Of a stretch of DNA of 48,225 bases, positions 44,758-48,095 are shown piece by piece. Source of the DNA: an uncultured Bacilli bacterium (GTDB lineage: Bacteria; Bacillota_I; Bacilli_A; RF39; UBA660). The notes beneath the pieces are model-generated. The model did no database searches. It saw nothing but the letters and a program-made list of their open reading frames with translations, and was not told the origin of the DNA. The stretch is from contig CANRIB010000007.1 of the NCBI GenBank assembly GCA_947630575.1, forward strand, positions 1-48,225. The letters are read 5' to 3'. Numbering within the stretch: position 1 is the stretch's first letter; each line of letters starts with the position of its first letter. A program made the translations under genes and the position numbers.

Positions 44758-45174
44758 TTAACGTTTACTAAATTGTGGTGCACGACGGGCTTTTTTAAGT
44801 CCATATTTTTTACGTTCTTTAACTCTGGCATCTCTGGTTAAAAAACCGTTTGCTTTTAAAACTTTACGATAAGAATCTTCTCTTGATTGATCAGTATTAG
44901 CATCAAATTTTAATAATGCTCTTGCAATACCTAAACGAATAGCTCCTGCTTGTCCTGAATAGCCACCGCCTCTTACTGTAACTTCAATATCAAAGCGATT
45001 AGCATTATCTGTTTCTACTAATGGTTGTTTTAAATCCATGACAAGAATTTGATTAGGAAAATATTCATTAACATCTACTCCATTGACAGTGATGTTTCCT
45101 GTTCCACCTGTAAGTCTTACAGACGCAGAACTTCTTTTACGACGACCTGTTGCGGTCCATACTTGTTTAGCCAT
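44758..45174 (-). CDS. rpsI: 30S ribosomal protein S9
   Basis: A 138-residue S9. It has [52 protein letters not shown], the [22 protein letters not shown] tail (last residues KR), and normal length. The basic tail reaches the P-site tRNA. It lies 13 bases downstream of rplM and they are cotranscribed. The ribosome site AGGAGGTAAAGA precedes ATG. Confidence 0.98.
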
Positions 45175-45187
45175 AATTCTTTACCTC

Positions 45188-45619
45188 CTAATCAATATTT
45201 AGCGCGATAGGCTTCTGAGCATCATGTTTATGATTAGCATCTCTATAAACAAATAATTTTTTGCCCATTTTTTCTCCAAGCGGTCCGTTTGGAAGCATGC
45301 CTTTAATAGCTCTTTCTACCATTTCTTCTGGGTATTTTTCAATCATTGTACGAGCATTTCTTTCTCTTAATCCTCCTGGATAACCAGAATGATTGTAATA
45401 CATTTTGTCATCAAGTTTCTTACCAGTTAATTTTACTTTAGAAGCATTAATTACTATTACATAGTCACCACAGTCAACATGAGGAGTATAAGTAGCCTTA
45501 TGCTTTCCTCTTAAAATTGTAGCAGCTTTAGTAGCTAGACGTCCTAAAGTTTGTCCTTCGGCATCAATGATGTACCATTTACGTTCAACGTTTTCTTTAG
45601 TTTGCATGAATGTCTTCAT
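45188..45619 (-). CDS. rplM: 50S ribosomal protein L13
   Basis: A 143-residue L13. [26 protein letters not shown] is the N-terminal signature, followed by [34 protein letters not shown] and [19 protein letters not shown]. It is an early assembly protein of the large subunit. It has its own consensus promoter and a structured leader like those of other Bacilli L13 genes. It is followed by rpsI. Confidence 0.98.
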
Positions 45620-45756: not shown

Positions 45757-46116
45757 TTACATTAATTTTAGGGTTTTAAGAGGTAAATTTTCATGATTTA
45801 AAGATTTTTCTTTTATATTTGTTAATAAATTATTTATTTCATTATAAGTTAATTCTTGTTCAGTAGTATTTACATAAATTCCTTCTTTTAAATAAAGTTT
45901 GGTAAATAAAAGAATATTATAAATCATACTTTGATCAACATTTTTAGTTTTATCTTCAATTATTATTTTTATTAAACTTTCTAGAGCTTCTTTAATTTTT
46001 CGAGAACAGTTTTTACCTGCTATATTTTTAGTATATCTTAAAGTGTAAGCAAGATAATAATATCTATTTTCAAATGTTCTGATAGTTTCATCTGGAGCAT
46101 TTGATAGGATAATCAT
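45757..46116 (-). CDS. Small helical protein of unknown function with a probable 5' frameshift
   Basis: A 119-residue mostly helical protein from the first in-frame ATG, which has no good ribosome site. Just upstream, ATG at 46163 is preceded by AAGGAATAACAT, 4 bases after the truA stop. It enters a different frame that stops after 13 codons. The two frames meet at seven consecutive A (46152-46158 on the minus strand). Adding one A, or a -1 shift there, would give a continuous protein starting MAKKIARKPRKPTIKD followed by MIILSNAPDET. An assembly error, transcriptional slippage or true decay are all possible. Family not recognised. Confidence 0.6.
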   Translation of the reverse strand: MIILSNAPDETIRTFENRYYYLAYTLRYTKNIAGKNCSRKIKEALESLIKIIIEDKTKNVDQSMIYNILLFTKLYLKEGIYVNTTEQELTYNEINNLLTNIKEKSLNHENLPLKTLKLM

Positions 46117-46166: not shown

Positions 46167-46895
46167 TTATTCCTTATAATATATTTTATTTAGGTATAAG
46201 CCTTGAGGGGAAGCAGTTTTAAATTGCTTTTTCTTTTCCGGATTATCTAAAGCGGCTTTAATTTCTTTTAAAGTAGCTTTTTTATTACTAACATCAAGCA
46301 TAGCTCCCACTAAGTTTCTTACCATATAACGGTAAAAGCTTTTACCAGTGAATTTAATTTCTAGTATATCATTTTTCTTTTTAAAGTCAATAGAATATAT
46401 GATACATTGATAGTTATCGCGAGTCCCAGAAACAAAATTATGAAAATCATGAATACCAAGAAATAATTTAGCACATTTTTGCATTTCTTTAATATTTAGT
46501 TTATAGTTAGGTTGATAAGTATAATCTTCTAAAAAGGGACTAAATTCTCCTAGATTTATTTTATAAATATATTCTTTTTTTATAGTGTTAAAACGAGCAT
46601 GAAAGGCATCAGGAACTTGGGTAACGTTTGTTATGTATATAGATGGTGCAACTAAACTGTTTAGAGCTTTTTTTAAATTAGAAGGTTCAATTGCAATATC
46701 TAGATTAAAACTGGCCTTTTGGTCATAAGCATGAACTCCATGGTCAGTTCTTCCGGCACCTTTTATTGTTACTTCTTTTTTATTTATTATAGTTAGAGCT
46801 TCTTCTAATTTTTTTTGGACTGTATTATAATCTTTTAATCTTTGGAAACCATAAAATTTAGAACCATTATAAGACATACTAATTAGATATTTCAT
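46167..46895 (-). CDS. truA: tRNA pseudouridine38-40 synthase TruA
   Basis: A 242-residue enzyme. MSYNGSKFYGFQRL at the start and GAGRTDHGVHAYDQ with catalytic Asp51 are diagnostic. FHARFNTIKKEYIYKI and FTGKSFYRYMVRNLVGAML complete the family pattern. It isomerises U38-40 in the anticodon arm. In Bacilli the usual order is ecfA1-ecfA2-ecfT-truA-rplM-rpsI. Here truA overlaps by 17 bases the second of two degenerate EcfA-like genes, and no ecfT is present between them. Confidence 0.96.
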   Translation of the reverse strand: MKYLISMSYNGSKFYGFQRLKDYNTVQKKLEEALTIINKKEVTIKGAGRTDHGVHAYDQKASFNLDIAIEPSNLKKALNSLVAPSIYITNVTQVPDAFHARFNTIKKEYIYKINLGEFSPFLEDYTYQPNYKLNIKEMQKCAKLFLGIHDFHNFVSGTRDNYQCIIYSIDFKKKNDILEIKFTGKSFYRYMVRNLVGAMLDVSNKKATLKEIKAALDNPEKKKQFKTASPQGLYLNKIYYKE

Positions 46896-47505
46896 TTTCT
46901 TGCTCCTTTAGGCGATAAATTGCTTTTAATAAATCGCTGGTTTCTTTATAGTTTTCAATATTTAAATTTTTAGAGAGCATTAAGTTAATAAATTCTTTAA
47001 TTGGAGGAACATTGATATTAGGAATAGTTTCATTTTTAGAATAAGTGTTGATAACATTTTCATTATCCACATATATAATTGCCGTTGCGATATTCAAAAA
47101 GAAAGTAATATCATTAGTATAAATAATAATGGTTTTATGATATTCTTCAGAAAGTCTTTTAAATAGTCTTTGGTAATCCTTTTGTTCTTTAATGGTTAAG
47201 CCTTTATCAAAATAGTCTAAGGCAAGTATTTCTTTATTACTTATTAATGAAGCCGCAAGATTAATTTTTTTTATTTCGGATTCAGATAAATCTTTAATTG
47301 TTTTTGAAAGATATGTATCGTCAAGAAAAACCATTTTTAGGGCTTTGCTAGCTTTAGGACTTGCTAAGTAACTTTCAACCGTGGCAGGAAATTTATGAAA
47401 TGATACAATAGATACATTTTCATTGTTAGTAGTTAAATTTAGATTGCCTAATAGACCATAGATAGTTTCTCTTGGTTTGTTTTCGATAATTGTCATTACT
47501 TCCAT
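46879..47505 (-). CDS. Degenerate EcfA2-like ABC ATPase homologue
   Basis: A 208-residue protein in the ecfA2 position. The aligned relic is clear. DLSESEIKKINLAASLISNKEILALDYF (72-99) stands where ABC ATPases have LSGGQ...VAIAG...ILILDEP, then IKEQKDYQRLFKRLSEEYHKTIIIYTND (T130-D132), where the switch histidine of THD should be, then IIYVDNENVI. The C-terminal PPIKEFINLMLSKNL...DLLKAIYR matches EcfA tails. The whole Walker A region is missing, the signature is LSESE and the catalytic Glu is Tyr. It cannot hydrolyse ATP in the normal way. It overlaps its neighbours on both sides by 10 and 17 bases, indicating a maintained operon. Confidence 0.8.
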   Translation of the reverse strand: MEVMTIIENKPRETIYGLLGNLNLTTNNENVSIVSFHKFPATVESYLASPKASKALKMVFLDDTYLSKTIKDLSESEIKKINLAASLISNKEILALDYFDKGLTIKEQKDYQRLFKRLSEEYHKTIIIYTNDITFFLNIATAIIYVDNENVINTYSKNETIPNINVPPIKEFINLMLSKNLNIENYKETSDLLKAIYRLKEQENEISN

Positions 47506-48095
47506 AGTTCATTCACCAAACTTTCATTAGTAAAATATAATTTATCAATTAGATTATAATATTTTAGGCCAATGGATAATTCAACAATGAAGGGGAGATT
47601 AAATCCTAATTTCTTGAGAATTTTTTCTTCTTTTAATATTTCTTCTTTTGGACCTTCCATGATAATATTATTGTTTTGAAGGACAATAAGATAATCTAAT
47701 AATAAAGCTTCTTCTATGTCGGTTGTATAATTTATTATTTGTTTGTCATGTTCTTTTAAATAAGTAATTATATGAGTTTTAAATTCATTATCTAGATAAG
47801 TTAGAATATTAAAGAAAACAAAGACTTTATTAGGGTTATTTAAATTATTTAAAATGTTTATTTTTATTTTATCTATTAAAGTCAAGTCTGGTTTATTTAT
47901 TAAATATTCACAGTTAAAATCATTTAATAAAGAGGATGTTATAGTTGTATTTTCTAAAGTATCTTTAGTGAGAACTACACAGTTGTTTAGAATAAATTCT
48001 TGAGCATCTAATGTGTAATTAAAATTGCTGGTATATAAGATTGTAGTATTAATTTCAGGTATATCTTTATTATTAATAGTAAAAAGTTTAGGCAT
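47496..48095 (-). CDS. Degenerate EcfA1-like ABC ATPase homologue
   Basis: A 199-residue protein in the ecfA1 position. Its C-terminal half follows EcfA closely: a Walker-B-like strand VFVFFNIL (91-98, with no Asp-Glu), a retained D-loop LD (101-102), INYTTDIEEA (121-130, switch His replaced by Thr), DYLIVLQNNNIIMEGPKEEIL, and the EcfA1-specific tail KKLGFNLPFIVELSIGLKYYNL...ESLVNELW. The N-terminal 80 residues have no Walker A or Q-loop and are mostly unrelated. I chose the ATG after CGAGGTGATACT. It is the upstream partner of the second degenerate EcfA-like gene, with a 10-base overlap. Its role is unknown; it may be a structural module or on the way to loss. Confidence 0.8.
   Translation of the reverse strand: MPKLFTINNKDIPEINTTILYTSNFNYTLDAQEFILNNCVVLTKDTLENTTITSSLLNDFNCEYLINKPDLTLIDKIKINILNNLNNPNKVFVFFNILTYLDNEFKTHIITYLKEHDKQIINYTTDIEEALLLDYLIVLQNNNIIMEGPKEEILKEEKILKKLGFNLPFIVELSIGLKYYNLIDKLYFTNESLVNELWK

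Follow-up and report, generated by a model that had tools for sequence, protein, structure and literature searches.

Catalytically degenerate EcfA1 and EcfA2 orthologues retained upstream of truA in an EcfT-poor lineage of uncultured Bacilli

The two genes directly upstream of truA in the genome of an uncultured Bacilli bacterium are direct orthologues of EcfA1 and EcfA2, and together they constitute a retained pseudoenzyme, in which the catalytic residues have been lost and purifying selection acts on the protein. These genes are designated psA1 and psA2 here. A prediction made previously from the sequence of this DNA had described them as a catalytically dead pair; beyond that prediction, dead pairs lacking EcfT prove to be an order-wide pattern with many intermediates. 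The order that contains this genus is, we assume, probably RF39. A relative close to this genome is Candidatus Caccenecus avistercoris, which NCBI places in the class Bacilli as incertae sedis.

The window, meaning the whole stretch of 48,225 nucleotides that was analysed, corresponds to one complete contig from a draft genome of 1.33 Mb; its end lies 130 bases upstream of psA1. The minus-strand order is psA1, psA2, truA, a 119-aa gene, rplM and rpsI, and the relevant features are as follows.

47496-48095, minus strand: psA1, shortened, degenerate EcfA1 orthologue (199 aa; ATG at 48095, stop at 47496)
47718-47732, minus strand: switch-His position of psA1, NYTTD, residues 122-126, with Thr instead of His
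47499-47648, minus strand: C-terminal domain of psA1, residues 150-199, ending ESLVNELWK
47496-47505, minus strand: 10-bp overlap of the psA1 stop and the psA2 start
46879-47505, minus strand: psA2, shortened, degenerate EcfA2 orthologue (208 aa; ATG at 47505, stop at 46879)
47434-47460, minus strand: possible P-loop remnant of psA2, YGLLGNLNL, residues 16-24, with no Lys; the alignment is ambiguous here
47275-47289, minus strand: signature remnant of psA2, LSESE, residues 73-77
46167-46895, minus strand: truA, intact, GRTD present; its start at 46895 lies inside the psA2 end
45757-46116, minus strand: 119-aa gene with unassigned function in the truA-rplM interval (context only)
45188-45619, minus strand: rplM (context)
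44758-45174, minus strand: rpsI (context)

Both of the overlapping frames predicted upstream of truA are present and open. Repeat and promoter scans returned nothing bearing on psA1 or psA2 themselves. The promoter scan did detect a sigma-70-like promoter with a 12/12 match at 45731-45703, which suggests that rplM may have its own transcription start. The 119-aa gene (45757-46116, minus strand) has a dS of only 0.05 relative to genome G019, far under the values for truA (0.43) and rplM (0.27), and so looks recently exchanged between species.

Family models place the two proteins. Among NCBIfam models, psA1 matches PRK13635 (E 4.9e-14) and the EcfA1 model TIGR04520 (E 5.7e-13), and psA2 matches the EcfA2 model TIGR04521 (E 3.7e-12); both miss the curated NCBIfam cut-off (45.9 vs 330 bits and 48.9 vs 315 bits). 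A sequence search against solved EcfA1 chains also recovers psA1 (E 7.5e-9), whose kinship to EcfA1 lies chiefly in its C-terminal half. Pfam searches gave no match for psA1, and for psA2 returned only ABC_tran below the cut-off along with chance families. The AlphaFold models have mean pLDDT values of 88.4 (psA1) and 87.3 (psA2), with a poorer model for the C-terminal ~40 residues of psA2 (pLDDT blocks 54-74). Residues 1-199 of the psA1 model, its full length, align best to CbiO (5x40) and EcfA1 (7nnt), both with Z 18.1. The psA2 model resembles many ABC ATPases, EcfA among them, over its first ~165 residues; over about residues 4-165 it aligns to MJ0796 (Z 16.4) and to EcfA-A' (4hlu; Z 16.1). 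Both proteins are thus modelled with the ABC-ATPase fold, on which the original prediction had staked itself and which is found in both predicted structures. The pair also holds the position of EcfA1 and EcfA2, upstream of truA and with the 10-bp overlap. Chance similarity to EcfA was rejected on the family matches and the fold, and horizontal replacement on the gene order and 10-bp overlap, which equal those of an intact ecf locus.

The loss of catalytic residues predicted for the window holds throughout the genus: neither psA1 nor psA2 has a Walker A motif (P-loop, scored as GxxxxGK[ST]), a catalytic Glu or a switch His. The predicted disappearance of LSGGQ stands with a nuance. No LSGGQ-type signature is present in either protein (LTLID in psA1, LSESE in psA2), but psA2 keeps an LSxxE remnant and, usually, the Walker B Asp (LDYF), and both motifs had been recognised in the second frame beforehand. 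The YGLxGN stretch of psA2 is conserved across the genus and may be what is left of the P-loop. At the switch-His position of psA1, NYT is nearly invariant in the genus, and there are new genus-invariant positions that are absent as such in intact EcfA, namely N122-Y123 in psA1 and F99 and T130-N131 in psA2.

Conservation was gauged in an alignment made jointly with 18 EcfT-bearing loci having both P-loops. Of the conserved positions, psA1 keeps 4/32 in the nucleotide-binding part and 10/10 in the C-terminal domain (Fisher p 7e-7), which bears out the EcfA1-type tail originally noticed in the first frame. An EcfA-type C-terminal domain is likewise retained in psA2, where 9/13 conserved positions are kept, compared with 18/42 in the nucleotide-binding part; here the excess in the C-terminal domain is not significant (p 0.12). 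At 199-208 aa, against about 270-290 aa for EcfA1 and EcfA2, both proteins are about a quarter shorter.

No ecfT is found at the truA site or anywhere in the window's own genome, which was searched with both Pfam and a profile covering divergent EcfT; its absence at the site had been predicted. The CbiQ/EcfT family PF02361 is absent from this genome and 35 congeners, except for G010 and G012, and is present in all the other genera of the class that were sampled. The S-component families PF12822 and PF07155 are missing from this genome and the 24 congeners searched, again except for G010 and G012. In these two genomes, a separate cassette away from truA comprises an S-component, an intact EcfA and an EcfT (L094 4256-6940; L093 2072-3964). 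G010 keeps the dead pair beside this cassette, and in G012, alone among the assessable congeners, the pair is absent. Together, the EcfT and the two S-component family surveys support the suggestion that ECF transport has been lost from the lineage.

It is unlikely, in light of these surveys, that the pair continues to work for a membrane transporter, either through an unrecognised or diverged EcfT encoded elsewhere or as an accessory to another ABC system. Some sister genera do encode a strongly diverged EcfT-like protein of 198-230 aa that Pfam misses, and S-components could belong to families beyond the surveyed PF12822 and PF07155, such as BioY, ThiT or QueT. RF39 genomes have also been reported to lack fatty-acid pathways and several amino-acid and vitamin pathways (PMC6784871), and such bacteria would need uptake. 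However, a profile including strongly diverged EcfT, which recovered the left-out control G252 at 7e-37, detected none in 15/17 genus members searched; the remaining two were G010, with its separate cassette, and G033, with a borderline partial match (E 0.006, 53 positions). Judged by motifs, neither subunit could hydrolyse ATP, and the two congeners that do have an ECF transporter rely on the separate cassette, which supplies an intact EcfA of its own.

The same arrangement extends well beyond this genus. A search of 288 genomes of the order with a psA2 profile found EcfA2-like genes, many as short frames, in 231 genomes and no match at threshold in 57. PF02361 EcfT was found in 67 genomes and PF12822 in 24, with 5 of these over the cut-off. 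Even with EcfT intact, PF12822 S-components are uncommon (24 vs 67 genomes), so that the intact ECF modules of the order may use other or unknown S-components. One hundred loci were fetched, and 99 of them plus 2 reference loci were classified (101 in total); since loci were picked by psA2-profile match, genomes without the pair are under-counted in this set.

In the order, 67 further EcfT-less loci were found, distributed over 27 genera. In a locus tree built from TruA, L13 and S9 with midpoint rooting, one large EcfT-less clade (support 0.92) includes the window's genus along with g33, g35, g38, g45, g51, g55, g78, g84, g86, g88, g89, g93, g109 and g119, and further losses are scattered. Parsimony places 10-12 EcfT losses across the 101 loci, depending on the treatment of weak nodes, a count that is approximate given midpoint rooting and weak internal nodes. 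Among the fetched loci the pair is kept after each EcfT loss, and truA lies beside it in all except L194. That the pair has outlived the transporter about ten times suggests a role independent of transport. In one draft genome, G264, there are two different pairs (L155 and L158), one clustering with g78 and the other with g38, which is probably a case of bin contamination.

The loci can be arranged by stage of catalytic loss. Intact loci have EcfT and both P-loops, and a complete catalytic set is present in 16/24 EcfT-bearing loci vs 0/77 EcfT-less loci, in which neither subunit has one (67 from sister genera and 10 from the window's genus; p 5e-13). The P-loop and Walker B Asp persist in A1 of 35/67 EcfT-less loci (20/27 genera) and in A2 of 7/67 (5 genera). 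LSxxE is usually still present in A2, whereas the signature of A1 degenerates. The intermediate genera g25, g39, g50, g54, g65 and g76 have the diverged EcfT-like protein of 198-230 aa, and the switch His and the P-loop of A2 are mostly gone from them. As read from these motifs, one nucleotide half-site usually appears to outlast the other among intermediates in the order. The diverged EcfT-like proteins lie between A2 and truA and are mostly missed by PF02361 (L175 6829-7470, L177 7397-8056, L222, L230, L234); the loci that encode them carry catalytically impaired ATPases.

Upstream of psA1, many congeners have a signal-anchored surface protein that is variable and gives weak Ig-like matches (L081 1028-4741, L082 8619-10491 and others), and a divergent XRE-type regulator is also found there in many congeners, tandemly duplicated in G013. 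In many EcfT-less genera, small genes judged by eye to be spoVG-, veg-, yabP-, yabQ- and divIC-like precede A1 (L146 8058-10341, L147 8026-10380 and similar loci), and such neighbours are what would recommend a dead dimer acting in a sporulation or cell-division programme. The yabP/yabQ-like genes are also found upstream of an intact ecf locus. Such a role is very unlikely for the pair: the window's genus lacks these genes and has the surface protein or rpmE upstream instead, and an ancestral neighbourhood explains the gene order equally well.

Within the genus, both genes were found adjacent and open in 27/35 congeneric genomes, with 47-78% identity, so that psA1 and psA2 are open in all 28 copies when the window is counted. 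Of the eight congeners without the full pair, six have no detectable truA, probably owing to an assembly gap in that region, one has a contig starting inside truA, and the last is G012. A complete truA was found in 28 congeners, and G012 alone among them lacks the pair. Upstream of truA in G012, hpf-like and csp-like genes occupy the place of the pair, and the loss is real; the pair is therefore not indispensable. Each of the 27 copies examined (26 congeners and the window) has a psA1-psA2 overlap of exactly 10 bp, as does the intact ecfA1-ecfA2 of sister genomes; the predicted translational coupling is supported.

Both genes are under strong purifying selection. The closest pairs have a dN/dS (Nei-Gojobori) of 0.15-0.33, bootstrap 95% intervals lying below 0.5, and the ratio is low in nearly all thirds of psA1 and psA2; truA in the window-G019 pair has a value of 0.21, and close pairs in the EcfT-less genera g33, g35 and g38 have values of 0.14-0.27. 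In a neutral simulation, almost no frame stays open at 0.3 substitutions per site. Relaxed selection, stops and frameshifts in relatives, the marks of a pseudogene, were not found. The original prediction had held that the genes were kept intact and, besides the lack of an ABC fold, had named two ways in which it might fail. The 27 open congeneric copies, together with the window, agree with the retention of intact genes; relatives show none of the frameshifts expected of random decay, and sequencing error is rejected because 28 genomes agree, 27 of them separately assembled.

Slow decay of pseudogenes, with psA1 and psA2 as relics in the course of being lost, would accommodate the gradation among loci (intact, partial and short forms), protein evolution faster than that of truA, and the loss in G012. 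It is highly improbable in view of the dN/dS values, the 28/28 open genus copies, the survival of the pair across about 10-12 EcfT losses and many genera, and the new genus-specific invariant residues. Least probable of all is that the frames persist solely as a translational leader coupling expression to truA, since the A2-truA overlap or short distance (63/67 EcfT-less loci) and the constant 10-bp A1-A2 overlap are accompanied by amino-acid purifying selection along most of both genes and by conserved protein folds.

The best explanation, and one that we consider probable, is that psA1 and psA2 form an EcfA1-EcfA2 pair of pseudo-ATPases without a role in transport, which is probably heterodimeric and functions as a cytosolic scaffold or switch. 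A non-transport role or scaffold, as originally proposed, continues to be the best reading of the pair, although an inferred one. EcfT has been lost, the S-components probably with it, and the EcfA1 and EcfA2 orthologues have been retained as a soluble pair. The two may still heterodimerise by way of their EcfA-type C-terminal domains; a heterodimer whose subunits are produced in equal quantity would agree with both the conserved C-terminal domain and the constant gene overlap. An ABC sandwich pairs the P-loop of A1 with the signature of A2. About half of the related EcfT-less loci could therefore encode one composite site, with the P-loop and Walker B Asp from A1 and the LSxxE signature from A2, that binds ATP without hydrolysis. 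Because the A1 P-loop outlasts that of A2 and the A2 LSxxE is kept, the first form to be repurposed was probably gated by nucleotide, with a single non-hydrolysing site. The window's genus and several others appear to have lost that site, and the dimer here would be constitutive.

The client of such a dimer might be TruA or another translation factor. TruA is a candidate as the sole constant neighbour, and this is weak evidence, since truA adjacency is ancestral in Bacilli. Evolutionary-rate covariation between psA1 and psA2 within the genus is not specific (r 0.13, p 0.11); both covary equally with truA and rplM, and mirror-tree partial correlations single out no partner. In solved ECF structures, the ATPases open and close around ATP and drive EcfT through coupling helices (PMC10368641). 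A more specific and rather doubtful proposal is that the pair represents a free-standing, non-hydrolysing ABC clamp, formerly ATP-gated at the one site formed by the A1 P-loop and the A2 signature and now, in this genus, nucleotide-independent, which would act with TruA on tRNA modification or translation as an order-wide exaptation. If this is true, soluble ABC proteins would gain a new class, one that has repeatedly broken away from a transporter.

Under the scaffold or switch reading, the ATPase pair of a widespread transporter may have a selectable, transport-independent role. The graded loci (active, partly active, one-site and dead) provide a natural experiment in the conversion of a motor to a pseudoenzyme. 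They also raise the question of how reduced gut bacteria, reported vitamin auxotrophs if they are RF39, obtain vitamins without ECF uptake. To our knowledge, and within a limited survey of openly available literature, no whole ABC ATPase pair exapted after transporter loss has been described, and a literature search for degenerate EcfA or the genus name returned nothing relevant.

The closest known system is the EcfA1/EcfA2 pair (TIGR04520/TIGR04521) of group II ECF transporters, such as that of L. delbrueckii (7nnt, 8bms), from which this paired pseudoenzyme appears to derive. The locus upstream of truA, gene order, 10-bp overlap, ABC fold and EcfA1 C-terminal domain are shared, whereas psA1 and psA2 are shorter, have no P-loop, catalytic Glu or switch His, and are accompanied by neither EcfT nor a PF12822/PF07155 S-component. 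Heterodimeric ABC transporters with one degenerate site, such as MsRv1273c/72c (PMC12038006), show an asymmetric loss of composite sites like that of the intermediate genera. Unlike psA1 and psA2, in which the hydrolysis residues are gone from both subunits and there is no membrane domain, they keep one active site and work in membrane transporters. ABC-F proteins, ABCE1/RLI and UvrA likewise have ABC domains without a membrane partner, and psA2 weakly matches RLI by sequence. However, those proteins are active ATPases with two cassettes per chain. As in pseudoenzymes in general, the fold is kept and the catalytic residues are lost, with the sequence under selection.
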